Source: Actinomycetospora lemnae (GTDB lineage Bacteria; Actinomycetota; Actinomycetes; Mycobacteriales; Pseudonocardiaceae). From it: 64,000 bases of DNA. Below are positions 11,643 to 51,549 of the stretch, piece by piece. The notes beneath the pieces were generated by a model that made no database searches, was not told the DNA's origin, and saw nothing but the letters and a program-made list of their open reading frames with translations. Position 1 is the first letter of the stretch, and every line of letters begins with the position of its first letter. Position numbers and translations under genes: made by a program. The stretch is from assembly GCF_028737315.1 (NCBI RefSeq), contig NZ_JAQZAO010000018.1:1-64000 (forward strand), in the 5' to 3' direction.

Positions 11643-12178
11643 GGGAGCACTCCTCGGGGAACGATGGATCGAACAGGCGTTCGAGGGCGCGGGTACCCCG
11701 TGCCGGCCGGCGGACACCTCCGCGCGCCCCGGAGGGTGGCTACCCCGCGGTACGGCCTGGGGTCTGCACTCTGGTCACACGGTGTGTCGTCGGTCAGACT
11801 GTCGGCGTGTCGGGATCGGTCATGAGCACTCCTCGCTCGTCGGGCGACGTCGCCGCGGCCGGGCTGCCCGGCCGCGACCCCTACGGCGAACCCCGGGGGT
11901 CGCGCAGACACACGCGCCGCTGAACCGGCCCCGACGACCCCGTCGAGGGGTTGCCGGGCTATGGCGATCAGCACTCTTTCGGACGTGTCGGGGCGGTGCG
12001 CGGCGACGGCCGCGGAGGTTAACGTCGCATTGCCCCTCCGGTCGTCCACCACGGACACCACGACCGGTGCGCCGGGGCCTGCCCCGGGACGAGCGCCACC
12101 GCGCTCCCCGGTCCCCACGACCACCACCGCCGGGCCCCCGGCGACCACCACCTGCACGGACGACGATCGGAGGCGCAC
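11643..12178. other. Divergent intergenic region between the DUF3072 gene and gltB
   Basis: This 536-base stretch carries no convincing gene: the open frames across it have no family similarity and poor starts. It must hold the divergent promoters of the DUF3072/RibD-C pair and of gltBD. An 11-bp inverted repeat, CACAC-G-GTGTG (11776-11786), is the clearest dyad. The gltB ribosome binding site GGAGG is at 12169-12173. No confident GlnR-type box was recognised. Confidence 0.5.
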
Positions 12179-16775
<4,597 letters not shown>

Positions 16776-35880: not shown

Positions 35881-36279
35881 ATGGCGGTCACCGTGGACAA
35901 CACCGACGACCTGACCCGCGCGCCCGGCGCGTCGGTCACCCCCGACACCCTGCCGAACGACCTCGACATCACCGACCTCGTCGTCGGCGGCGGCGCCGAG
36001 GCCGGGCCGCGCGACACCGTGCAGGTCCAGTACCAGGGCATCCGCGTGTCGGACGGCGGCGAGTTCGACTCGTCGTGGACCCGCGGCGGCGCCCCCGTCG
36101 AGTTCCCGCTCTCGGGCGTCATCGACGGCTTCAAGCTCGGCATCTCCGGCATGCGCGAGGGCGGCCGGCGCATCCTCGTCGTCCCGCCGCACCAGGGCTA
36201 CGGCGCCCGCGGCGTGCCGCCGGTGATCCCGGCGAACGCCCACCTCGTGTTCGTCGTGGACCTCGTCAAGGTCAACTAG
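35881..36279 (+). CDS. FKBP-type peptidyl-prolyl cis-trans isomerase
   Basis: A 132-residue single FKBP domain that isomerises X-Pro bonds. It shows DTVQVQYQGIRVSDGGEFDSS, VEFPLSGVIDGFKLGISGM, EGGRRILVVPPHQGYGARGV and PPVIPANAHLVFVVDLVKV, the full family series. There is no signal peptide, so it is cytoplasmic. It begins 10 bases after the transporter gene. Its stop codon and that of the convergent fusion gene share the same CTAG (36276-36279). Confidence 0.92.
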   Translation: MAVTVDNTDDLTRAPGASVTPDTLPNDLDITDLVVGGGAEAGPRDTVQVQYQGIRVSDGGEFDSSWTRGGAPVEFPLSGVIDGFKLGISGMREGGRRILVVPPHQGYGARGVPPVIPANAHLVFVVDLVKVN

Positions 36280-38384
36280 GCCCGAGGTCGACGAGGCAGG
36301 AGCTCGCCGAGCAGGTCCGCCGCCCGCCGCGCGCCGCCCGGGTCCACCGGGACCGGGCGGACCGGCCGGGCGAGGAGCGCGGCGACGGTCGCGGCCACCG
36401 TCTCCGGGGTGGCGTCGGCGTAGTCGAGCCGGACCCCGGCGCCGAGCCGCGCGAGCCGGTGCGGCACGTGGATCTGTTGCTCGAAGTGGTGCTCGAGCGG
36501 GACGTAGACGAACGGCCGACCGGCGATCGCGAGCTCCATCGTCGTCGTCAGCCCGCCCTGGACGACCGCGACGTCGCCGGCCGTGAGCTCGCGCTCGAGG
36601 TCGGGGACGTGCCCGCGCACCTCGACGCCCGCCGGCACCCGCAGCGACGCCGGGTCGATGCGGGGCCCGGCGACCGCGACCAGGCGCAGGCCGGGGACCT
36701 GCTCGCGCAGCAGCGGGTACGCGGCCGCCACCCGCTCGAGCAGCGGCCGGCCGACGCCCGAGCCGCCGACGCTGACGACGCAGACGCGCTCGTCGGGCGC
36801 CCAGCCCAGGGCGGCCCGCAGCTCGTCGCGGTCGCCGACCGGACCGGCGGTGGACACCCAGCCGCTGAACGCGAAGTGCGCGCAGGTCCAGTCCCGCACG
36901 GTCGGCAGGCCGGGGCCGAGGGGCTCGGTGACCAGGTCGCCGGGCTCGCCGACGAACACCGACCGGTCGCGCAGCCGCGGGTAGCGGGCCACGTGCTCGA
37001 CCATCTCGGCGTTCTGGTCGGCGGTCAACGCCGCCTCGACCGTGCCGCCGTCGGGCATCGGCAGCCAGCCCACGACGTCGGTGAGCCACGCGAACGGCGC
37101 GCGCTTGAGCTCGGGGTTCTCGTGCAGGAAGTGGTCGATCTCCCAGCTCTCGTCGGCGACGACGAGGTCGTAGTGACCCTCGTCGACGACATCGGCGAAC
37201 ACGTGGAAGTTGGCGACGAGGATCTCGTCCATCGACCGGATCGCCCGGAACGCGTGCAGGTCGTGCTCGCCCGCCTCGTCCTCGATGTGCGCGCTCTCCG
37301 ACGCCAGCAGCGCGCTCGCGGGGTGGCGGCGCAGGCCGTGCCGGTCGAGCAGCGCGGTCACCGGGTGCTGGGCCAGCCAGTCGATCTCCAGCTCGGGGTG
37401 GGCGACGGCGAGCTCCCGGGCGATCGCGACGTCACGGCGCGCGTGGCCGAGCCCGATCGGTGAGCTCACGACCAGCACCCGCGGCCGGCGGGCCCGGGCG
37501 GGCGTCCAGGTCGTCGTCCGGGGCGGCGGGGGCGCGACCGAGCGCGCGAAGTCGCGGACGGCGAGGTTGACCCGCACCGGGTCGCGCAGCGGGGGCGCGT
37601 GCCCGCCGTCGGGCAGCGTGAGCAGCGTGCCCCGGGCCCACCGCGCGAGCGCCGCGCCGAACGCCCACGGCACCACGGCGTCGGCGTCCCCGTGCACGAC
37701 CAGCACCGGGCAGCGCACCGCCCGCCCGACCACCTCGGCGTCCGCGGACGTCGCCGCGGCGACCGCGGGCACGGTCGCCGCGAGGGTCGGGCCGTCGGTG
37801 TCCAGCGCCCACGCCACGAAGTCCTCGAGCGGCTTCGTGGCGTGCGGGTCGGTGAAGACCTGGGAGGCGAAGAACTCGACGAAGTCCCGGTAGTCGGTCT
37901 CCCAGTGCTCGCGGTTGAACTTCTCCCAGCCCTCGTACCGGTCGCGGGGGGCGTCGAAGTCGAACGTGACCGCGAGCGAGGGCAGGGTCGGGGCGATCGC
38001 GACGACACCCAGGGCCCGCTCGGGGTGCCAGGCGGCGAGCTGCAGGGCGCGCCGGCCGCCGAGGGACAGCCCCACGACGACCGCGCGCCCCACCCCGACG
38101 GCGTCCAGGACGTCGAGCGCGTCCTGCACGGCCTCGACGTCCCGGTACGCCGCCGGGTCGAGCGACCGGTCCGCGTCGCCGTTGCCGCGGCCCTCCACGG
38201 TGATCACCCGGAACTCGCGGGCGAGGAACGGCACCTGGTGCTTCCACTGGCGCATGTGCACGATCGCCCACGACGTGAGCAGGACGATCGCCGGCGCGCC
38301 GGTGGGCCCCTCGAACACCTCGTAGCCGACCCGGAACCCGTCGCGCACGATCGCGCCGACGGTGTCCGGCTCCCTCGCCCGCAC
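36276..38384 (-). CDS. Alpha/beta-hydrolase - glycosyltransferase (GT-B, MGT/MurG-like) fusion protein
   Basis: A 702-residue two-domain protein. Residues about 10-285 are an alpha/beta-hydrolase: nucleophile GLSLGG with Ser107, LVVHGDADAVVPWAFGAAL (Asp), and LLTLPDGGHAPPLRDP (His). From about 295 on is a GT-B glycosyltransferase: RVLVVSSPIGLGHARRDVAI at the start, VFVGEPGDLV, VCVVSVGGSGVGRPLLERVA and the donor-site region VVQGGLTTTMELAIAGRPFV. The pairing is unusual and suggests acyl/ester chemistry joined to sugar transfer. GTG at 38384 follows AGGGAGCGG. It starts eight bases after a methyltransferase gene in the same direction. Confidence 0.85.
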   Translation of the reverse strand: MRAREPDTVGAIVRDGFRVGYEVFEGPTGAPAIVLLTSWAIVHMRQWKHQVPFLAREFRVITVEGRGNGDADRSLDPAAYRDVEAVQDALDVLDAVGVGRAVVVGLSLGGRRALQLAAWHPERALGVVAIAPTLPSLAVTFDFDAPRDRYEGWEKFNREHWETDYRDFVEFFASQVFTDPHATKPLEDFVAWALDTDGPTLAATVPAVAAATSADAEVVGRAVRCPVLVVHGDADAVVPWAFGAALARWARGTLLTLPDGGHAPPLRDPVRVNLAVRDFARSVAPPPPRTTTWTPARARRPRVLVVSSPIGLGHARRDVAIARELAVAHPELEIDWLAQHPVTALLDRHGLRRHPASALLASESAHIEDEAGEHDLHAFRAIRSMDEILVANFHVFADVVDEGHYDLVVADESWEIDHFLHENPELKRAPFAWLTDVVGWLPMPDGGTVEAALTADQNAEMVEHVARYPRLRDRSVFVGEPGDLVTEPLGPGLPTVRDWTCAHFAFSGWVSTAGPVGDRDELRAALGWAPDERVCVVSVGGSGVGRPLLERVAAAYPLLREQVPGLRLVAVAGPRIDPASLRVPAGVEVRGHVPDLERELTAGDVAVVQGGLTTTMELAIAGRPFVYVPLEHHFEQQIHVPHRLARLGAGVRLDYADATPETVAATVAALLARPVRPVPVDPGGARRAADLLGELLPRRPRA

Positions 38385-42759: not shown

Positions 42760-44088
42760 TCAGCCCCCGAACGTCGCGGGCTGCCCCGTGGCCTCGAGGA
42801 CCGACATCCACAGGTCGCCGTCGGGGTCGACCTGGTTGCGGTGCGAGGTGATCAGCTCCATGGGGACGTGAACGAAGCGGCGCCGCCAGCGCACCACGAC
42901 GGTCTCGGTGCGCCCGGCCATCCCGGCGTGCACGGCGGCGTGGGCCAGGCGCACGCAGTAGACGCTGTCGTAGGCGTTGGCCGCGACGCTGCGGATCGCG
43001 TAGCTCGGGTCGAGGTAGCGCACCGTCGGCGGGAGGTCGACCGCGGTGAGGTGCTCGGTGATCTTCTGCTTGAGGAACAGCCCGATGTCGCCGAGCTTGG
43101 TGTTGCCCGAGGCGTCGGTGGTGCGGCCCTCCTGCTCGAGCAGCTCCTGGCCCGCGCCCTCGGCGACCACGACGACGACCTGCCCGTGCCGGCGCACGTG
43201 GTCCTCGACGCGGCGCAGCACGCCGTCGGGACCGTCGAGCACGAACGGCACCTCGGGGATCAGCACGAAGTCGGCGTCGTTGTTGGACAGCGCGGCGTAG
43301 CAGGCGATGAAGCCGGAGTGCCGGCCCATGAGCTTGACGATGCCGACGCCGTTCTCGGCGGCCTGCGACTCGATGAACACCGACGCGATGAACTTGGTGG
43401 CCTGCGCGAACGCGGTCTGGAAGCCGAAGCTCTGGTCGGTGAAGGGCAGGTCGTTGTCGATCGTCTTCGGGACGCCGATGACGGAGATGTCCAGGCCGCG
43501 GGCCTCGATCTCCCGCGTCAGCTTCATCGCGCCGCGCATGCTGCCGTCGCCACCGATGACGAACAGGACGCTGATGCCCATGTCGACGAGGGTGTCGACC
43601 ATGTCCTCGGGGTCCTGGTCGCCGCGCGAGCTGCCGAGGATCGTGCCGCCGTCGTTGTTGATGTCGCGCACGGCGCGCAGGTCGAGCTCGACCACCCGGT
43701 CACGCTGGTGGCGGGTCAGGCCTGCGTAGCCGTTGCGGAAGCCGTAGATGTGCGCGACGTGGTAGTGCTCGGTGAGCTCCTGGACGATGCCGCGGATGAC
43801 GTCGTTGAGGCCGGGGCACAGCCCGCCGCACGTCACGATGCCGACGCTCGTGGCGGCCGGGTCGAAGTAGATCTTGCGGCGTGGGCCGGCCGTCTCCAGG
43901 CTCGGCAGCTGGTCGATCGACACGCCGCGGGAGAGCAGGATCGAGACGGTGTCGTCGACGAGGACCCGATCGTCCTCGTGCACGTAGTGCGGCGACGTAC
44001 GCTTGGTCGCCAGCATCTCGGCGAACGGGGAGTCGTAGCGGCACTCACCCAGGCTGCGGACGCGCAGGTCGTCGAGTTCGAGCGTCAC
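42760..44088 (-). CDS. ATP-dependent 6-phosphofructokinase (long, plant/trypanosome-like clade)
   Basis: A 442-residue phosphofructokinase that phosphorylates fructose 6-phosphate. Signatures are VTCGGLCPGLNDVIRGIVQE, YGFRNGYAGL, FVIGGDGSMRGAMKL, VIGVPKTIDNDLPFTDQSFG and KLMGRHSGFIACYAAL. GGDGS (Gly rather than Asp after GGD) is the ATP-using form, not the pyrophosphate-using one, while the length and N-terminal extension fit the group III/long clade. GTG at 44088 has GGGAGG upstream and overlaps the LuxR regulator's stop as GTGA, so the kinase may be translated with the regulator. Confidence 0.9.
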   Translation of the reverse strand: MTLELDDLRVRSLGECRYDSPFAEMLATKRTSPHYVHEDDRVLVDDTVSILLSRGVSIDQLPSLETAGPRRKIYFDPAATSVGIVTCGGLCPGLNDVIRGIVQELTEHYHVAHIYGFRNGYAGLTRHQRDRVVELDLRAVRDINNDGGTILGSSRGDQDPEDMVDTLVDMGISVLFVIGGDGSMRGAMKLTREIEARGLDISVIGVPKTIDNDLPFTDQSFGFQTAFAQATKFIASVFIESQAAENGVGIVKLMGRHSGFIACYAALSNNDADFVLIPEVPFVLDGPDGVLRRVEDHVRRHGQVVVVVAEGAGQELLEQEGRTTDASGNTKLGDIGLFLKQKITEHLTAVDLPPTVRYLDPSYAIRSVAANAYDSVYCVRLAHAAVHAGMAGRTETVVVRWRRRFVHVPMELITSHRNQVDPDGDLWMSVLEATGQPATFGG

Positions 44089-46928
44089 GGCGGACCTCCC
44101 GTGGGTCGGGATCGACCGGCACGCCTCGTCGCGCCGGGCGACACCGCCGCCCGGGTACCACCGGTTTCTGCATCGGTCACGATAACGGAGCGGGACGGTT
44201 CGGTGCGGACCCCGCGACCACACCCACCATCGGGGAACCGGCGGACGAGCTCACTGCGCGAGCGCAGCCCGAGCTTGCGGTAGACGCGGGTCAGGTGGTT
44301 CTCGACGGTCTTGCGGGAGACGAACAGCGCGGCCGCGGCCTCGTCGTTCGAGCGACCCTCGGCGACGACCCGGGCCACCTGGTACTCCTGCGGCGTCAGC
44401 ACGGCCCACGCGGTCTCGGTCGTCGAGGGGCGGGAGAGCGACACCCCGGCGGCGGCCAGCTCGGCCTCGGCGCGGTCCGCCCAGGGTCGGGCGCCGAGGG
44501 CGACGAAGGTCGCGTGCGCCTCGCGCGCGGCCGACCGGGCGACCGACGGGCGGCGCAGGCGGCGCAGGCACTCGGCCTCGGCGAGCAGCGTGCGCGCCTT
44601 CTCGAACGGCTGGTCGCAGCGGGCGTGCGCCGCCCGCGCCCGCGCGAAGCAGGTGGCCGCGTCGTCCGGGTCGTCGGCGAGGAGCCCGCGGCAGCGCGCG
44701 GCGGTCGCGTCCGGGAAGGCGAGCCCCGACGCGGCCCGCTCCTCCCACCACGCGAGGACCTCGCGCGCCCGGTCGGTGTCGCCGTGCCGGACCAGTGCCT
44801 CGACGAGGTCCGGACCGTAGGGGACGACGTTGCTCGCGCCGAGCCCGTCGGCGCACGCCCGCCGGTGCGCGCGCTCGAGGTGGGCGACGGCCTCCTCGGT
44901 GTCACCCACCGCGAGCGCGGCGAGGCCCTCCACCGCCGGCACGTAGACCTGCAGGCAGTCGATCCCGTGGGCGCCGACCTCGGCGAGGACCCGTCGAGCG
45001 CCCTCGCGGCTGCGCGCGATGTCGCCGGTCAGCGCGTCCAGGCGGGCGAGGACCAGCGTCGCGAACGCCGCGGTGCCGGACTCGCCCTGCTCCTCGGCCC
45101 ACGCCACGGCCTCGACGGCGTCCGCGCGGGCTGCCGGCCAGCGCCCGCGCCACACGTCGAGCTCGGCGCGCACCGCGTGCGCGAACGCGAGCATCGCCGA
45201 GGTGCCGTGGCGCCGGGCCAGGGCGAGGAGGTCGTCGACGCGGCGATCGGCGTCGGCGTAGCGCTCGGTCACGACGGCGACCTGGGCCAGCTGGGCGCGG
45301 TCCTGCAGGTCCCAGGCGGTGCCGTCGGTGTGCTCGAGGGTGTCGAGGATGGCGAGCGCGGCGGGCACGTCGCCGGTCAGGACGAGCGCCTGCACCTCGG
45401 GTGCGCGGCGGTGGGTCCCCTTCCGCGCGAGGACGAGCATGTCCCGCACCCGCCCGGCCATCGCCGCCGGCGTCGTCGCCTCCGCGTAGAGGGCGGCCGC
45501 GGCGTCGGTGTGCTCGGCGTCCTCGGCGGCGAGGCGCTCGGCGGCACGGACGAGGTCGGCGAGGGCGCGCCGGGGATCGCCGAGCCAGGCGGTGGCACGG
45601 CCCCGGACGATCTCCGCCCTGGTCCGCGACGTCGCGTCGTCGGCCAGGGCGAGTGCCGCCTCGGCGTGCCCGGCGGCGAGGTCGAGCGCCCCGGCGAGCA
45701 GGAACTCCTCGGCGGCGGCGAGGAAGCGGCCGGCCCGGTGGCCGCGGTCCGCGGTCAGCTGCGCCGCGCGGGCCCACGCCTCGCCGGCGCTGCGGTGCCC
45801 GCCACGCTCACCCGCCGACCGTGCGGCGGTCGCGAGCTGGTCGCCGACGACCTCGTCGGTGCCCTCGACCCGCGCGGCCAGGTGCCACGCGCGCCGGAGG
45901 CCGGCGGTGCGCCCGGCGAGGGCGCGGCGGACGTGCCGCGTGACCTCCGGCTCGTGGGCGAGGGCGACCGGACGCAGGAGCGGGTGGCGCAGGACCGGGC
46001 GGCCGTCGTCGTCGCGGCGCAGCAGGCCGGCGTGCTCGGCCGGGGCGAGGTCGTGCTGGTGGAGGCCGAGGTCGCCGAGGACGAGGTCGACCTCCTCCCG
46101 CTCGGCCGTGCCCGCGGCCGCGAGGACGGTCAGCGCCGTCCGCGAGCCGGCGGGCAGGGCGGTCAGCGCGCAGCTCCAGAGCTCCTCGAGCGCCGGGCCG
46201 ACCCGGGGGGCGCGCGGGCGGGCGTCGGCGTCGAGGTGCGCGGCGTTCTCCACCAGCGCGAGCGGGTGACCCGCGAGGTCCGCGACCAGGCGGTCCACGA
46301 CGAGGGAGGAGCGGTCGTCCGCGACGGGGCACAGCAGCTCGCGGCTCTCCGCCGGGGTCAGCCGGCCGAGGTCGACCTCGACGGCGCCGGACAGCGTGCG
46401 GCGCTCGTCGCGTGTGGCGAGCAGCAGCGTGACCCGGGTCGACCGCAGCCGCCGGGCGACGAACGCCAGGACCTCCTCCGATGCCGGGTCCACCCACTGC
46501 AGGTCGTCGACCACCACGAGCAGCGGCCCGTCGTCCGCGTCGCCGGCGACCTCGAGCAGACCGAGCGCGGCGGCGCGGACGGCCAGCGGCCCGGGGGTCG
46601 GTCCGGCGCGCAGCGCGACGCTCACCTCGAGGGCCTCCCGCTGGACCTCGGGGAGGGCCGCCAGCCACGGGCGCAGGGGGGCGACGAGGTCGGCGAGGAC
46701 CGCGAAGGGCAGGTGGGACTCGGCCTCGGTGCCGGCGATGCGCACGGTGCGGGCCCTCGTCCGCGCGCACATCCTGGCGAGCAGCGCGGTCTTCCCGATG
46801 CCGGGCTCGCCGCGCACGACGGCGACCCGCTCCGCCCGGTGCCCCGTCGTGATCTCACCCAGCGTGTCGATCTCCGCCGCACGGCCGACGAAGGGCGGTC
46901 TCGGCGGGTCATCGCCGGCTGTGGTCAT
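44085..46928 (-). CDS. LuxR family ATP-binding (LAL-type) transcriptional regulator
   Basis: A 947-residue large LuxR-family regulator. It begins FVGRAAEIDTLGEITTGHRA, then Walker A VVRGEPGIGKTALLARMC and Walker B LLVVVDDLQWVDPASEEVLA. A long TPR-like middle leads to the C-terminal helix-turn-helix LTPQEYQVARVVAEGRSNDEAAAALFVSRKTVENHLTRVY written here in parts: LTPQEYQVARVVAEGRSNDE then AAAALFVSRKTVENHL. About 45 disordered residues follow the HTH, and their codons contain the pfk ribosome site. ATG at 46928 with GGGGGATC upstream is the start. It is divergent from the peroxidase operon. Confidence 0.9.
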   Translation of the reverse strand: MTTAGDDPPRPPFVGRAAEIDTLGEITTGHRAERVAVVRGEPGIGKTALLARMCARTRARTVRIAGTEAESHLPFAVLADLVAPLRPWLAALPEVQREALEVSVALRAGPTPGPLAVRAAALGLLEVAGDADDGPLLVVVDDLQWVDPASEEVLAFVARRLRSTRVTLLLATRDERRTLSGAVEVDLGRLTPAESRELLCPVADDRSSLVVDRLVADLAGHPLALVENAAHLDADARPRAPRVGPALEELWSCALTALPAGSRTALTVLAAAGTAEREEVDLVLGDLGLHQHDLAPAEHAGLLRRDDDGRPVLRHPLLRPVALAHEPEVTRHVRRALAGRTAGLRRAWHLAARVEGTDEVVGDQLATAARSAGERGGHRSAGEAWARAAQLTADRGHRAGRFLAAAEEFLLAGALDLAAGHAEAALALADDATSRTRAEIVRGRATAWLGDPRRALADLVRAAERLAAEDAEHTDAAAALYAEATTPAAMAGRVRDMLVLARKGTHRRAPEVQALVLTGDVPAALAILDTLEHTDGTAWDLQDRAQLAQVAVVTERYADADRRVDDLLALARRHGTSAMLAFAHAVRAELDVWRGRWPAARADAVEAVAWAEEQGESGTAAFATLVLARLDALTGDIARSREGARRVLAEVGAHGIDCLQVYVPAVEGLAALAVGDTEEAVAHLERAHRRACADGLGASNVVPYGPDLVEALVRHGDTDRAREVLAWWEERAASGLAFPDATAARCRGLLADDPDDAATCFARARAAHARCDQPFEKARTLLAEAECLRRLRRPSVARSAAREAHATFVALGARPWADRAEAELAAAGVSLSRPSTTETAWAVLTPQEYQVARVVAEGRSNDEAAAALFVSRKTVENHLTRVYRKLGLRSRSELVRRFPDGGCGRGVRTEPSRSVIVTDAETGGTRAAVSPGATRRAGRSRPTGGPP

Positions 46929-47277
46929 CGGATCCCCCGTGGCGGTGTCACCGGGGCGGGCGTGGTGGGTGTGGCACAGGATGCCGCCTCTCCGTGACGG
47001 GCAGTGCCGCCTTTCGGGTCGAAGCAGGGGATTTCCCTGGTGCCTGGACACCGTCCTCTACGCCGCTGGTGTGACGCACCGTGCCTGGGGCGACGCCGCG
47101 CGACCGGCCGGTCACGCGCCGCGGGAACCGGTCGATCGGTCCGGACGGACGCGCCTGCGCACGGTGCTCGGGCTGTCACGTCGCGCGTTCCCGGTCGTGC
47201 GGACGCGGGAGATCTCCCCGCTGCCGACTCCGTGCACGGAGCGGAATCGTCGACCACACACCGGAAGGGGGGCCACC
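46929..47277. promoter_or_regulatory. Divergent control region between the LuxR regulator and the peroxidase operon
   Basis: This 349-base gap has no gene. It carries two perfect palindromes just before the peroxidase gene: GGGAGATCTCCC (47207-47218) and CTCCGTGCACGGAG (47228-47241). Their centres are 22 bases apart, about two helical turns, and the second ends 36 bases before the ATG. They may be operators for the LuxR regulator or form a transcript hairpin. A purine-rich ribosome site (GGAAGGGGGG) precedes the ATG. Confidence 0.55.
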
Positions 47278-49029
47278 ATGGCCGACAAGCAGGGCGTGGC
47301 GCGGGTCGTGCGGAACCTGCGGCACGGGGGGCACGCACTGCCCAAAGAGGTCTTCGACAAGGTCGTCAACGGGGATCAGCGCGTCGACGTGAGCCTGCTC
47401 GAGGACGTCGCGGCCGCGGACACGGAGGGAACGCCGTTCGGCTACCTGTTCGCGGACCTGGCCGCGACGTTCCCGTCGGGTCACCTGCCTCCGGAGGACC
47501 CGGAGCCCGTGGTCTCGGCCCTCAAGGCGCTCGGCGCCGCGATGATCGACGGTGACCCGGGGGACGGCCCGGACGTCAACTCGACGATCCGCCCCGTCTA
47601 CACCTACTGGGGCCAGTTCATCGACCACGACCTCACGGCGAACACCGACCGGGACGACGTCCTCGCCATCACGCGAGGGGACATGGGTGGGTCGCAGAAG
47701 TTCGTCGCGCTGCACCCGACCGACGTCGTGCAGAAACTGAGGAATCTTCGTCAGCCGGCGCTGAACCTCGACTCGCTCTACGGCGACGGCCCGGGCTCGA
47801 CCGAGCCCGACGCGGTCCCGTACCAGGACGGGAAGCGCTTCGTCCTCGGGCTCACCACGCCGCTCAACGGGGCCCCGCCCTTCGCCCCCGTGCCGCCGGT
47901 CGGCGACACCGCCCGGGACCTGCCGCGCGACAACCACAAGGTGGCCCGGATCGGCGACGGCCGGAACGACGAGAACCTCATCGTCGCCCAGCTGCACGTC
48001 GCGTTCCTGCGCTTCCACAACGAGGTCGTGTCCCTCGTCGAGGCCGCTGACCCGACCGCGACGGACGAGGACGTCTTCACCGAGGCCCGCCGACTGGTCC
48101 GCTGGACCTACCAGTGGCTCGTCGTCCACGACTTCCTCGAGACGATCACGAAGACGGGCACCGTCGCCGCGGTGCTCTCCAACCCGGTGCCCCTGTTCGA
48201 TCCGCAGGACGCCGACGTCTTCATGCCGCTGGAGTTCTCCGTCGCGGCCTTCCGCTTCGGGCACAGCATGGTCCGGGGTGCCTACGACTGGAACCGCAAC
48301 TTCGGCGTCGCGGCGCCCGGGCAGCCCGCGGGAGCGCCCCGAGCGACGTTCGAGCAGCTCTTCCAGTTCACGGGCAAGCCGAAGGACCCGGGATTCTCCA
48401 TGGCCGGAGCACCGACCCTGCCGGCCAACTGGCCCGCCGAGTGGGACCGGCTCGTCGACGTCCCGTCCTCCCCGCCGGGAGGGGTCCGGTTCGCGCGCAA
48501 GATCGACACCCGTCTGGTCCCCGCCCTGTTCTCGATGATCAACGAGGGACAGGAGCCGGCCGACTCGTTCGCCGTCCGCGCCATCCTCAAGAACCTGGCG
48601 ATGCGCAACCTCCTGCGCGGCTACAAGCTCGCGATCCCCTCCGGCCAGGCCGTCGTCGGCGAGCTGCGGAAGAAGCTCAACGTCACCGGGCAGCCCGACG
48701 TGATCCCGGAACCGCTGTCGACCGCGCAGCTCCTCAGCGGCCCCAACCAGGCCGCCTCCGCGGCGCTCGCGAACGGTGGCTTCCTCACCGACACGCCGCT
48801 GTGGTTCTACCTCCTCAAGGAGGCGGAGGTGGAGGGCGGCAACGCCCTCGGGACCGCCGGCAGCCGGATCGTCGCCGAGACGATCATCGGCCAGATCCGG
48901 AAGGACCCGGAGTCCTACCTGCGCGTGGACCCGGCCTGGACACCGGTCCTGCCGAACGGGCGCACGCTGTCCACCATCAAGGACCTCCTCGAGATCGCCG
49001 GGGTCCTCTTCCCGGGCGGCGCGCCGTGA
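47278..49029 (+). CDS. Animal-type haem peroxidase
   Basis: A 583-residue peroxidase of the cyclooxygenase/myeloperoxidase-like superfamily. TYWGQFIDHDLTANTDRDD holds the distal His (residue 117), NLDSLYGDGPGSTEPDAVPY is the conserved substrate-pocket region, and GDGRNDENLIVAQLHVAFLR with FHNEVV contains the distal Arg/Glu segment. The proximal haem ligand lies in AAFRFGHSMVRGAYDWN (His329). No signal peptide is seen, so it probably acts in the cytoplasm or is exported another way. ATG at 47278 follows GGAAGGGGGG. Its stop overlaps the protease-hydrolase start (GTGA), making the two an obligate operon. Confidence 0.9.
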   Translation: MADKQGVARVVRNLRHGGHALPKEVFDKVVNGDQRVDVSLLEDVAAADTEGTPFGYLFADLAATFPSGHLPPEDPEPVVSALKALGAAMIDGDPGDGPDVNSTIRPVYTYWGQFIDHDLTANTDRDDVLAITRGDMGGSQKFVALHPTDVVQKLRNLRQPALNLDSLYGDGPGSTEPDAVPYQDGKRFVLGLTTPLNGAPPFAPVPPVGDTARDLPRDNHKVARIGDGRNDENLIVAQLHVAFLRFHNEVVSLVEAADPTATDEDVFTEARRLVRWTYQWLVVHDFLETITKTGTVAAVLSNPVPLFDPQDADVFMPLEFSVAAFRFGHSMVRGAYDWNRNFGVAAPGQPAGAPRATFEQLFQFTGKPKDPGFSMAGAPTLPANWPAEWDRLVDVPSSPPGGVRFARKIDTRLVPALFSMINEGQEPADSFAVRAILKNLAMRNLLRGYKLAIPSGQAVVGELRKKLNVTGQPDVIPEPLSTAQLLSGPNQAASAALANGGFLTDTPLWFYLLKEAEVEGGNALGTAGSRIVAETIIGQIRKDPESYLRVDPAWTPVLPNGRTLSTIKDLLEIAGVLFPGGAP

Positions 49030-50939
49030 GCCCCACCCTCCGCGAGCAGCAGGACCTCGCCGCCGCGCGCTACAGGAACCGCGCGCCGGACCGCGCGGAG
49101 ACGGAGCGCAAGCAGGAGGAGACCGGGACGCTGGTCGCCGACCAGCCCGACCAGATCGAGGCCCGGGCCGAGCGGCTCATCGGCGACGTCGTCGGGAGCC
49201 GGGCGGTCCGGCAGGCCGCGCGCACGGAGGGCGCCCTCGAGCGGATCATCGCCGAGAACGACCTGCAGCCGAGCCTCTTCCTCGGACGCGGCACGGCGAC
49301 CGCCGAGTCGGTCGGCCGCATCTCGCTGGCGGACGGCGGAGCCGGGACCGGCTTCCTCGTCGGCCGGCGCCTGCTCCTGACGAACAACCACGTCCTGCCC
49401 GACGTCGCGACCGCAGCGGGCGCGTTCGTGGAGTTCGACTTCGAGCTCGGGGCCGACGGTCGTCCCGAGACGCCGTCCGCGTTCGACCTCGACCCGGGCA
49501 CGCTCTTCCTCACCGACGCCGGGATCGACGCGAGCCTCGTGGCCGTCGCGCCCGCGAGGGGCGTCGTCGCGGGAGACAGGTACGGGTGGAACAGGCTGCT
49601 CCGGCAGCAGGGCAAGATCGTCATCGGCGAGGCCGCGAACGTCATCGGTCACCCCTCGGGGCGCCGGAAGGAGATCGCGGTCCGCAACAACCGGCTCCTC
49701 GACCAGCTCCCGGACTTCCTGCACTACGAGGCCGACACCGAGCCGGGCAACTCCGGGTCGCCGGTGTTCAACGACCAGTGGGAGGTCGTCGCGCTCCACC
49801 ACTCCGGCGTGCCGCGGACGAACGACGCGGGCCAGTGGCTGACGGTCGACGGCACCGTGTGGACCCGGTCGATGGGCGACGCCGCCGTCGACTGGGTGGC
49901 CAACGAGGGCGCCCGCATCTCGGTGGTCCTCACGCGACTCCGGGCCCTGGCGCGCACGCCGGCGCAGACGGCGGTGCTCGCCGAGCTGGGCAGCGAGGCG
50001 ATGGTCGGCGCACCGCCGGTGGAGGTCGCGTCGACGGCCCGCGAGGACACCGGACGCCGGGGAGTGCGCGGGACACCGGACACGCCGCCGCACCTCGTGT
50101 TCCTGCACGGTCGAGCCCAGCAGGGCCGGGACCCGGCGGCGCTGCGGGCCGACTGGGCGGGAGGCCTCACGCGGGGGTTGGGCTCGGTCGGTCGCCCACC
50201 CCTGGACCCCGCGCGCGCCTGGTTCCCGTACTACGGCGACCGGCTCGCGCACCTCGCCGGCCCCTCGGCGGTCGAGCTGGCCGGGGCCAACGAGGACGGA
50301 GCGGTGACCGCGGCCGAGCAGGCCGCGCCGCCCGGCTCGTCGGCGCAGGCCACCTACGCCGCGCTGATCGAGGACGCGGCGTCGCGCGCAGGGTTCCAGC
50401 CGGACGCGAGCGAGGGGTTCGGGGACCTGCTCGGCACCGTCCAGTCCGCGCTCACGCACCTCGCGAGCCGGAGCCGGCTCGACGACCTGTTCATCGCCCT
50501 GCGGTTCCGCGACGTCGCGCTCTACCTGGACGACGAGCAGGTCCGCGGCGAGGTCCTCGACACCGTGCTCGAGACCTTCCCGACGTCCGGGCCGGTGACG
50601 CTGGTGTCCCACAGCCTCGGGACGGTGGTCGCCCTCGACCTCCTGACCCGCACGCCACCGGACGTCGAGGTCCGGCTGCTCGTCACCGCCGGCAGCCCGC
50701 TCGGCCTGGACTCCGTGAACAAGCGGCTCCTGGCCGGAGGGCCACGTCAGCCGGACGTGGGGCGGTGGGTCAACGCCTGGTGCGTGGCGGACGCGGTCGC
50801 GATCGGCTGCCCACTGGGTCCGAGCTGGGGCCGGGGCGTCGAGGACATCCGCACCGACAACCCGCTCACCGCGGCGCACTCGATCGCCGAGTACCTCGCC
50901 GACGTCCGGGTGGCCTCGGCGATCGGCGAGCAGGTGTAG
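49026..50939 (+). CDS. Trypsin-like serine protease fused to alpha/beta-hydrolase
   Basis: A 637-residue two-domain protein. After a charged helical N-terminus (about 1-90, with ALERIIAENDLQPSLFLGRG) comes a trypsin-like domain: LLLTNNHVLPD with His122, DAGIDASLVAV with Asp168, and TEPGNSGSPVFND with Ser243, a complete triad, with no signal peptide. From about 350 on is an alpha/beta-hydrolase: HLVFLHGRAQQGRD (oxyanion hole), LVSHSLGTVVALD with Ser530, and a likely His618 in TAAHSIAEYLAD. Similar intracellular trypsin modules occur in bacterial conflict systems. It is coupled to the peroxidase gene by GTGA (49026-49029). The actual substrates are unknown. Confidence 0.85.
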   Translation: MSPTLREQQDLAAARYRNRAPDRAETERKQEETGTLVADQPDQIEARAERLIGDVVGSRAVRQAARTEGALERIIAENDLQPSLFLGRGTATAESVGRISLADGGAGTGFLVGRRLLLTNNHVLPDVATAAGAFVEFDFELGADGRPETPSAFDLDPGTLFLTDAGIDASLVAVAPARGVVAGDRYGWNRLLRQQGKIVIGEAANVIGHPSGRRKEIAVRNNRLLDQLPDFLHYEADTEPGNSGSPVFNDQWEVVALHHSGVPRTNDAGQWLTVDGTVWTRSMGDAAVDWVANEGARISVVLTRLRALARTPAQTAVLAELGSEAMVGAPPVEVASTAREDTGRRGVRGTPDTPPHLVFLHGRAQQGRDPAALRADWAGGLTRGLGSVGRPPLDPARAWFPYYGDRLAHLAGPSAVELAGANEDGAVTAAEQAAPPGSSAQATYAALIEDAASRAGFQPDASEGFGDLLGTVQSALTHLASRSRLDDLFIALRFRDVALYLDDEQVRGEVLDTVLETFPTSGPVTLVSHSLGTVVALDLLTRTPPDVEVRLLVTAGSPLGLDSVNKRLLAGGPRQPDVGRWVNAWCVADAVAIGCPLGPSWGRGVEDIRTDNPLTAAHSIAEYLADVRVASAIGEQV

Positions 50940-51093
50940 CGCACACGGTCACCGGGCCCGTGACGCTCGCCCGCGGGCGGCCCGTCCTCTCGGTGCGGGA
51001 GTTCCACACCGACTCCTGAGGACGCCGCGCGGCGGGCGCGAGATCGCCCCACTACGGTGCCACCGTCCCGCCGCTCGTCCGTCCGGAGGAACC

Positions 51094-51549
51094 ATGGCCG
51101 ACGACATCGTCGTCACGCGCACCGTCGACGCCCCGCCCGAGCGGGTGTGGGACCTCGTCGGTGACCCGGCGCGGATCGGGGCCATCTCCCCGGAGTGCCA
51201 CCGCGTCGACTGGCTCGGCGGCGCCTCCGGCCCGGCGCCCGGCGCGCGGTTCAAGGGGCACAACCGCAAGGGGCTGATGCGCTGGTCGACCGTCGGCGAG
51301 GTCGTCGAGTACGAGCCGCAGCGCGCGATCAGCTGGGACGTCTCGCTCCTGGGCCAGTCGGTGGCGCGCTGGGGCTTCCGCCTGACGCCGCAGGACGGCG
51401 GCACCCGCGTCGAGCAGTTCTGGCAGGACCGGCGCAGCCCGATCGCCAACGTCGTCGGCCGGGCGCGGGCGTGGGACGTGCCCGCGGCCAACCGGCGCGG
51501 CATGGAGCAGACGCTCGACACGGTCCGGCGGAAGGCCGAGCAGGGCTGA
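51094..51549 (+). CDS. SRPBCC (START-like) family protein
   Basis: A 151-residue polyketide-cyclase/START-like protein. IVVTRTVDAPPERVWDLVGD is the classical N-terminal strand and helix, followed by RFKGHNRKGLMRWSTVGEVV, RAISWDVSLLGQSVARWGFR and the long C-terminal helix ANRRGMEQTLDTVRRK. The fold binds a hydrophobic ligand in a cavity. No ligand can be inferred. ATG at 51094 follows GGAGGAACC. It is convergent with the STAS gene. Confidence 0.85.
   Translation: MADDIVVTRTVDAPPERVWDLVGDPARIGAISPECHRVDWLGGASGPAPGARFKGHNRKGLMRWSTVGEVVEYEPQRAISWDVSLLGQSVARWGFRLTPQDGGTRVEQFWQDRRSPIANVVGRARAWDVPAANRRGMEQTLDTVRRKAEQG

Follow-up and report, generated by a model that had tools for sequence, protein, structure and literature searches.

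What does a haem peroxidase do when its gene runs into that of a protease fused to a hydrolase? The question is raised by a locus of Actinomycetospora lemnae, a soil actinobacterium, within a window of 64,000 nucleotides (contig NZ_JAQZAO010000018.1, positions 1 to 64,000). A sequence-only reading of the window had proposed that the two genes form a two-part effector unit, in which the protease matures or releases the peroxidase. We combined domain searches, alignments, phylogenies, structure models and surveys of related genomes to follow up this proposal.

The gene pair and its two proteins

The peroxidase ORF (47,278..49,029, + strand) starts with ATG and encodes 583 amino acids. The following ORF (49,026..50,939, + strand) starts with a GTG inside the peroxidase stop codon and encodes a trypsin and alpha/beta-hydrolase protein of 637 amino acids, the overlap being 4 bp as the sequence-only reading had described, and the two genes are presumably co-transcribed. 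Upstream, a LAL-type regulator (44,085..46,928, − strand), identified by Pfam as an AAA_16/STAND ATPase with a LuxR-type GerE helix-turn-helix, is transcribed divergently, and the intergenic region (46,929..47,277) is likely to contain both promoters. Rfam at gathering scores detected no RNA element between 43,000 and 54,000, and inspection of the flanking genes by eye recognised no defence gene. A crude hydropathy scan found no hydrophobic stretch at the N terminus of either protein, in agreement with the earlier statement that neither has a signal peptide.

The peroxidase matches An_peroxidase (PF03098, E 1.6e-22) and carries Gln113, Asp116 and His117 on the distal side, Arg229, Glu232 and the proximal His329. 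In an alignment of the window protein with 56 relatives, picked from 120 listed, His117, Arg229, Glu232 and His329 are invariant in 57/57 rows; with both the profile match and the catalytic residues present the protein belongs to the peroxidase-cyclooxygenase superfamily, and the two histidines stand where the sequence-only reading of a complete animal-type haem peroxidase had placed them. Asn444, within an N-x-x-R-G motif, is equally invariant (57/57), and from its motif shared with myeloperoxidase we take it to be the likely hydrogen-bond partner of the proximal His. Alpha-dioxygenases and cyclooxygenases carry a radical Tyr at position −3 from the proximal His. This position is occupied in the peroxidase by Arg326 of an FRFGH motif (57/57), so the enzyme should not be a dioxygenase. 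The first ~50 residues are modelled with low confidence and are mostly variable, with a conserved HGG at 16-18. The assembly holds one peroxidase copy at E 1e-3. Actinobacterial short peroxicins (Family 5) have been described, their role being given as completely unknown (PMC4420034). The window peroxidase is possibly one of these, as a bacterial-type PF03098 haem peroxidase with an R-x-x-E distal motif, although a coupling to a protease or lipase does not appear in the passages of that paper on which we draw.

The 637-residue protein consists of an N-terminal helical segment (residues ~1-92; 49,029..49,304, + strand), defined by the secondary structure of the model and free of Pfam matches, a Trypsin_2 domain (49,344..49,796, + strand; E 2.4e-21) and an alpha/beta-hydrolase region (50,091..50,927, + strand). 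The trypsin triad His122, Asp168 and Ser243 is invariant in 60/60 rows of an alignment of the window protein with 59 relatives, picked from 120 listed, placing the domain among the trypsin-like serine peptidases (S1, Trypsin_2). The hydrolase elbow Ser530 is also invariant in 60/60 rows, as are Asp589 and His618, which by motif are likely to complete the hydrolase triad. All four positions for the protease triad and the elbow had been given correctly by the sequence-only reading. The hydrolase half scores below every Pfam gathering threshold (Hydrolase_4, 15.4 against 27 bits; PGAP1, 12.1 against 24.3 bits). The structure model has a pLDDT of 80.6 and a pTM of 0.53, a fold search with the protein covered residues 79-323, and at one locus (L189) trypsin and hydrolase are encoded by two abutting genes. 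Pfam found neither an effector-associated domain (EAD) nor an Endonuclease_NS domain (PF01223) in either window protein. Among the PADLOC models none covers the pair and none matches the peroxidase; the 637-residue protein gave a weak match (25.4 bits) to RT-Protease_XI at its trypsin end alone.

Recurrence of the pair and replacement of the peroxidase

The peroxidase and trypsin/hydrolase genes form a well-supported recurring module, and most copies have, upstream, a STAND-LuxR regulator akin to that of the window. The two genes adjoin at 9 of 80 other protease loci (L002-L005, L007, L054, L059, L064 and L069), which represent about three lineages. The paired genes overlap by 1-4 bp in Actinomycetospora and are separated by ~100-130 bp in Streptomyces, and at L007 their order is reversed. 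The remaining 71 loci lack such a peroxidase in the fetched stretch, and at 38 of 75 protease loci no co-directional gene was called ≤300 bp upstream, so the protease protein can probably act alone.

In a survey of the class, 24 of 394 genomes contained the broad peroxidase family (E 1e-20) and 19 the protease, eight of these 19 with the hydrolase half; the counts, like those for Streptomyces, are lower bounds since ~2-4 candidates were scored per genome. Two of the 394 genomes hold both families and in both they are adjacent, one being that of the window and the other having the trypsin only. Given how rarely either family occurs we rejected chance adjacency, and nine paired loci among 80 are likewise more than chance would give for a peroxidase of this frequency. 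Of five Streptomyces genomes that encode both broad families, four keep the genes at separate places. A narrow peroxidase subfamily (>600 bits) was present in nine genomes across three surveys, six of them Actinomycetospora, and its neighbour is the full trypsin/hydrolase protein in 6/9, trypsin alone in one (L154), a Tle1-like phospholipase (PF09994, E 6.7e-80) overlapping by 4 bp in one (L170) and neither in one (L155). It is thus the narrow subfamily alone that is usually paired, while the broad families are mostly apart. The sequence-only reading had called for a check of co-occurrence and had counted genes found mainly apart in relatives as evidence against a unit; this separation applies to the broad families and not to the narrow subfamily. 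The variable neighbours it had also suggested looking for were found, in the partners just named and in alpha-dioxygenase and endonuclease genes beside the protease. In 25 of 78 loci a haem peroxidase of this type or of the alpha-dioxygenase type is encoded ≤6 kb from the protease, although the latter type was detected in only 27 of 388 class genomes, a lower bound.

DNA comparison with A. straminea gave identities of only 60-71% across the peroxidase against 89-96% from 49,200 on (protease and right flank) and 85% at the regulator end. The peroxidase tree groups the window with a C-140 type (support 100/99) and the protease tree groups it with A. straminea (100/99), a strongly supported conflict. 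The peroxidase alone has therefore been replaced at a fixed locus and, despite this, the short gene overlap has been kept; replacement by recombination may be neutral. A mobile or viral origin of the locus was rejected, as viral contigs screened for close relatives gave 8 pattern-matched stretches of which 0 were confirmed. Chromosomal flanks are conserved in the Actinomycetospora loci seen, so the locus is unlike a mobile island there.

The eight paired loci of Actinomycetospora and Streptomyces each have, upstream and in divergent orientation, a STAND-LuxR regulator related to that of the window. The best match of the window regulator is at the peroxidase locus in 5/7 other genomes searched (477-511 bits versus 103-242 for the next match), and lies on other contigs in G356 (the genome of L154) and in the genome of L007. 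Regulators of peroxidase loci fall within one clade (12/16 rows, support 97/98), and the regulator is orthologous at the five other peroxidase loci. A paralog of 45% identity is encoded elsewhere in the assembly without an adjoining peroxidase.

Oxidase neighbours and relatives of the trypsin

Downstream of the pair the window retains a 3′ relic of a copper radical oxidase gene (50,942..51,019, + strand). Its translated tail aligned with that of the oxidase at L002 with a local score of 95, whereas 200 shuffles reached no more than 37; the 250 bp block 50,950-51,199 is 90.0% identical to L002. Intact copies occupy the same place in A. straminea, A. callitridis, A. succinea and A. lutea, so that 4/6 full-length Actinomycetospora protease loci have a galactose-oxidase-like gene. 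The five copper and radical positions of galactose oxidase, Cys228, Tyr272, Tyr495, His496 and His581, all align in the L002 oxidase, whose three counterparts show the same motifs; judged by these residues the oxidase of the relatives is likely to be a source of H2O2. At L002, L003 and L004 peroxidase, protease and oxidase genes form one co-directional run with the protease in the middle. The window and A. chibensis retain the gene pair and are missing the oxidase, and A. lutea has oxidase and protease and is missing the peroxidase. Within 6 kb of the protease the oxidase gene was found at four of 78 loci, all of them Actinomycetospora and none a Streptomyces peroxidase locus. The N-terminal stretch of the L002 oxidase is moderately hydrophobic (1.62), so this protein may be exported.

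Tandem pairs of a peroxidase and a copper radical oxidase are established in fungi (PMC9770985, Bissaro et al. 2022), and the runs at L002, L003 and L004 resemble them in joining a haem peroxidase with such an oxidase. As described there, however, the fungal peroxidase is of another superfamily (class II, peroxidase-catalase), and the fungal genes are head-to-head with predicted secreted products, unlike the co-directional Actinomycetospora genes. The window differs further in having the relic alone beside its peroxidase.

The trypsin has relatives in predicted conflict systems. Residues 67-371 of the window protein (305 residues) share 41.7% identity with a Trypsin_2-Endonuclease_NS protein from Rhizobium, the trypsin of relatives is fused to Endonuclease_NS or Endonuclease_1, with Endonuclease_NS effectors for example at L006, and in A. 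lutea a trypsin-Endonuclease_NS gene lies 1 bp after the protease gene of the same locus. The trypsin-Endonuclease_NS arrangement has been predicted to be a conflict system, 'System 3', with proteolytic deployment proposed (PMC7159879; Kaur et al. 2020, eLife 9:e52696). The likeness consists of a related trypsin family fused to, or in an operon with, an effector enzyme, and proteolytic deployment would be the proposal for the window unit as well. The trypsin is kin to the peptidases of these systems, but the NucA (Endonuclease_NS) effector is absent from the window operon. There a haem peroxidase would take the effector role, an alpha/beta-hydrolase is joined to the trypsin and no effector-associated domain was detected in the two proteins; System 3 as reported is mostly alphaproteobacterial whereas the window unit is actinobacterial. 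A subset of the published NucA-trypsin systems has an EAD1 or STAND component; the window has a STAND-type LAL regulator divergently upstream, a layout unlike those published, and no EAD by Pfam. The unit also touches on Tle1-like effectors (PF09994), through the phospholipase gene that overlaps the L170 peroxidase gene, although the hydrolase of the window represents another kind of alpha/beta-hydrolase and is fused to the trypsin. A tree of the trypsin domain, from which 3/23 rows (L180, L223 and L077) were dropped because their motifs were not detected, left 9/17 inner forks open with unsettled bootstrap and is not used as proof.

One Streptomyces plasmid carries a trypsin-endonuclease gene near a DUF4157 gene. 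A first injection-system motif, which would miss the plasmid protein itself, gave no match among the genes called in 194 stretches, and a looser motif, itself a weak test, matched once (L178, four genes from the protease). A reading of the proteins as injection-system cargo is unsupported.

Possible functions and their meaning

The gene pair is likely to be an oxidative weapon or self-killing unit. More specifically, we tentatively favour an oxidative effector unit that is leaderless and under regulation, with the trypsin processing or releasing the peroxidase. The STAND-LuxR regulator would be triggered by a ligand and turn on both genes. Copper radical oxidase could supply H2O2; the window strain has its relic alone and would therefore need another source. 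The trypsin half is predicted to act on the peroxidase, perhaps at its first ~50 residues, the peroxidase would use H2O2 to generate toxic oxidants, and lipids may be the target of the hydrolase half, with killing of the own cell or of a competitor as the presumed outcome. The unit would work by analogy with the predicted NucA-trypsin conflict systems, with the peroxidase in the place of the effector. The two-part effector unit proposed by the sequence-only reading is partly supported: the effector role gains from pairing across genera, the upstream regulator, the varied and exchanged partners and the endonuclease fusions of the trypsin family, and the limitation to two parts is lost, since the unit extends to the regulator and some relatives add an oxidase.

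Lipid oxidation of an oxylipin-like kind, in which the hydrolase half frees fatty acids or alcohols, the haem enzyme oxidises them and the protease is housekeeping or regulatory, would account for the six of 75 protease loci, all Streptomyces, with an alpha-dioxygenase-type gene <10 bp upstream (E 1.2e-98 to Arabidopsis alpha-dioxygenase for the L008 gene, the other five by sequence clustering). It would also fit the phospholipase in the protease's place at L170, a nearby protein with catalase-like and An_peroxidase domains in Nonomuraea (L012) and the GMC oxidoreductase genes before the dioxygenase at L019 (by Pfam), L021 and L038 (by clustering). The FRFGH of the window peroxidase, lacking the radical Tyr, contrasts with YRMH in L008, the invariance of the trypsin triad is left unexplained and the L154 peroxidase is partnered by trypsin alone; we regard this explanation as unlikely.

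The oxidase genes of Actinomycetospora, together with the fungal precedent as reported in PMC9770985, could instead point to a redox pair, peroxidase and copper radical oxidase activating or feeding each other in the oxidation of biopolymers or small molecules, with the trypsin/hydrolase protein as a maturation factor only. This seems rather unlikely when the pair persists without the oxidase in the window and A. chibensis, oxidase and protease occur without the peroxidase in A. lutea, the oxidase is confined, among the 78 loci, to four of Actinomycetospora and the L002 oxidase may be exported. That the genes stand together merely by descent in a few lineages, with no joint function, agrees with the broad families being mostly apart, yet Actinomycetospora and Streptomyces share adjacency, gene order and regulator at protein identities of ~54-56%, and the short overlap outlasted the replacement of the peroxidase, making loose neighbourhood quite improbable.

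A wider version of the favoured oxidative effector unit, which we consider doubtful, would make it the bacterial equivalent of what a neutrophil deploys: an oxidative-burst unit, intracellular and regulated, of myeloperoxidase-like enzyme, H2O2-making copper radical oxidase, serine protease and lipase, acting as an immune or self-killing effector, whose peroxidase cassette diversifies by exchange under conflict.

As the sequence-only reading had surmised, no such operon was found described in the literature, searched by titles and beginnings of abstracts outside subscription journals and preprints. Published predictions of trypsin-centred bacterial conflict systems name several kinds of effector: nucleases, enzymes acting on NAD or nucleotides, proteases and pore formers. 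'Peroxidase' occurs 0 times in the main text of PMC7159879 and in that of a second paper on such systems, so that a haem peroxidase of an exchangeable kind would add a new class of effector. The set of species in which the peroxidase alone has been replaced is a natural experiment on what varies and why. Should the window peroxidase be a Family 5 short peroxicin as outlined in PMC4420034, the operon would give that family a direct, testable setting, made up of a protease partner, a regulator and the oxidase found in relatives.

Conservation of the peroxidase-protease pair

In a narrow sense, the coupling of a haem peroxidase (47278-49029, +) with a trypsin and alpha/beta-hydrolase protein, here the protease (49026-50939, +), which the sequence-only reading had proposed, is real. 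Among the best 80 of 262 confirmed protease loci in genome contigs, a window-family peroxidase adjoins the protease in nine, four from Actinomycetospora, four from Streptomyces and one from a metagenome bin (L007) in which the gene order is reversed, together representing approximately three lineages. The two genes overlap by 1-4 bp in Actinomycetospora and are separated by about 100-130 bp in Streptomyces. A survey of 18 genomes of the genus identified a full-length protease in six with the peroxidase adjacent in five; all six but the window's own correspond by coordinates to loci L002-L006 and provide no additional evidence. Surveys of 18, 394 and 343 genomes identified a narrow peroxidase subfamily (> 600 bits with the family profiles) in nine genomes, partnered by the trypsin/hydrolase in six, by a trypsin alone in one (L154), by a Tle1-like phospholipase (PF09994, E 6.7e-80) whose gene overlaps that of the peroxidase by 4 bp in one (L170), and by neither in one (L155). 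The operon and module very probably constitute a real conserved unit.

The broad families are distributed differently. The remaining 71 of these best 80 protease loci contained no such peroxidase in the fetched stretch (≤ 10 kb each side, often less). In the class survey (394 genomes) the peroxidase family was present in at least 24 and the protease in at least 19, eight of these with the hydrolase half, while both occurred in two genomes, one of them the window's own, and were adjacent in both. Across 343 Streptomyces genomes peroxidase profiles matched at least 15 and the protease query at least 37, including 18 that also have the hydrolase half, the counts of both surveys being lower bounds with few candidates scored per genome. 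Five of the Streptomyces genomes carried both families (G516, G530, G628, G654 and G667), side by side only in G530, the one with the narrow subfamily and apparently the genome of Streptomyces pair L054, as contig number and coordinates agree. Separation of the two families in relatives had been named beforehand as evidence against a coupled unit; the broad families show it, whereas the narrow subfamily does not.

A divergent regulator and exchange of the peroxidase

The peroxidase is preceded, in divergent orientation, by a STAND-LuxR regulator gene (LAL; 44085-46928, -), encoding an AAA_16/STAND ATPase and a LuxR-type helix-turn-helix; this arrangement is shared by the window, L002-L005, L170 and the four Streptomyces loci. 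Because LAL-type regulators are numerous, orthology was tested in seven other genomes. The top match of the window LAL lay at the peroxidase locus in five (four Streptomyces and G008; positions compared by hand), scoring 477-511 bits versus 103-242 bits for the next best, and on another contig in G356 (L154; 131 bits) and in the L007 genome (302 bits). In a tree built without L005, these LALs fall within one clade of 12 of the 16 rows (support 97/98). Also in the clade are a paralog encoded in the window's genome and the LAL of L049, where a Streptomyces protease stands without a peroxidase. The LAL-like gene nearest in L154 is not part of this clade, and the short contig of L007 has no LAL-like gene.

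Compared with A. straminea (L002) in 250-bp blocks, the window is 84.8 % identical in DNA at the LAL end and 76.0 % in the intergenic block. Identity drops to 59.6-70.7 % within the peroxidase gene, is 81.9 % in the block spanning the end of that gene, and lies at 88.8-96.0 % beyond it, starting at 49200. The corresponding protein identities are 53.6 % for the peroxidase, 92.0 % for the protease, 87.0 % for LAL and 94.7 % for the SRPBCC gene. The window peroxidase clusters with its counterparts in strain C-140 and on a metagenome contig (support 100/99) and the protease with that of A. straminea (100/99), a strongly supported conflict which, with the identity profile, indicates that three peroxidase lineages share one chromosomal slot. 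The exchanged part is the peroxidase. In A. lutea (L006) the slot is empty and a trypsin-Endonuclease_NS gene (11913-13871) starts 1 bp after the protease. Such exchange fits effector turnover, though it may be neutral replacement.

Likely H2O2 sources and the wider trypsin family

A copper radical oxidase is encoded downstream in A. straminea, A. callitridis, A. succinea and A. lutea (L002, L003, L004 and L006). The L002 protein can be aligned with galactose oxidase along 469 residues (best E 5.4e-56), a stretch that takes in all five copper/radical positions of that enzyme, and each of the other three copies has the motifs as well. Of this gene the window retains roughly the final 80 bases, and the A. 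chibensis locus has none. Three Streptomyces loci with an alpha-dioxygenase-type haem gene have a GMC oxidoreductase upstream of it (L019 by Pfam, L021 and L038 by clustering); enzymes likely to make H2O2 are therefore recurrent near the haem enzyme, not universal, and the four Streptomyces loci with the window-type peroxidase showed no such enzyme. A crude hydropathy scan covering 14 proteins gave moderate hydrophobic N-terminal stretches for the L002 oxidase (1.62) and the alpha-dioxygenase (1.92) and none for either window protein. Another Actinomycetospora (L172, 7847-11068) has a further galactose-oxidase-like gene, which shares 56 % identity with that of L002 and is followed by a gene that looks patatin-like by eye. 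In a different genus, a more distant peroxidase has beside it a gene with weak similarity to galactose oxidase (L118, ~1974; 71 bits, by BLAST label only).

Trypsin relatives carry C-terminal Endonuclease_NS (L180, L181, L188 and Rhizobium L223) or Endonuclease_1 (L024, L224) domains, and in L189 trypsin and hydrolase are separate abutting genes. Within 300 bp directly upstream of the protease, at the 75 loci with enough sequence, were the peroxidase (8), the alpha-dioxygenase type (6), astacin (6), Endonuclease_NS (2), other genes (15) or none (38). A haem peroxidase of either type lies within 6 kb of 25 of 78 proteases (window type 9, alpha-dioxygenase type 16); the latter type is uncommon in the class (at least 27 of 388 genomes, few candidates being scored in each). 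The astacin-type genes, ~100-230 bp upstream, are from Nocardia (L020, L022, L028, L034, L040, L075; E 9e-40 in L034, the other five by clustering). Caspase-domain genes lie within 6 kb of the protease at five of 78 loci (L008, 5592-6449, Peptidase_C14 E 8e-22; L013, L029, L034 and L040 by clustering). Nonomuraea loci L012 (16150-19065), L042 and L044 encode 971-aa An_peroxidase proteins three to four genes from the protease, with a catalase-like domain N-terminal to An_peroxidase (scanned in L012). A Streptomyces europaeiscabiei plasmid carries a gene annotated as DUF4157 (L224, 2357-3730) near its trypsin-Endonuclease_1 gene, and the window itself encodes a 702-aa protein (36276-38384, -) with alpha/beta-hydrolase-like and glycosyltransferase-like halves, read by eye from the translation.

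Possible roles of the operon

The proposed mechanism, a leaderless oxidative effector unit in which trypsin would process or free the peroxidase, the peroxidase would make oxidants and the hydrolase would attack lipids, is possible at somewhat below an even chance. The fungal tandem pair (PMC9770985) offers a parallel to no more than the oxidase-peroxidase step. That the pair instead serves lipid oxidation is suggested by the alpha-dioxygenase-type neighbours of the protease (E 1.2e-98 to a plant enzyme in L008), but the window peroxidase lacks the radical tyrosine and we consider this unlikely. The window peroxidase may be a Family 5 member, bacterial representatives of which have a role given as completely unknown in a passage of PMC4420034.

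The deployed-effector reading has a counterpart in the NucA-trypsin systems of Kaur et al. 2020, where trypsin is proposed to deploy an endonuclease (PMC7159879). Trypsin kin are common to both; however, the window operon has no endonuclease and is therefore not classed as a member. By analogy, we think that it would act like a NucA-trypsin system, with the peroxidase as the effector and a lipase-like half added.
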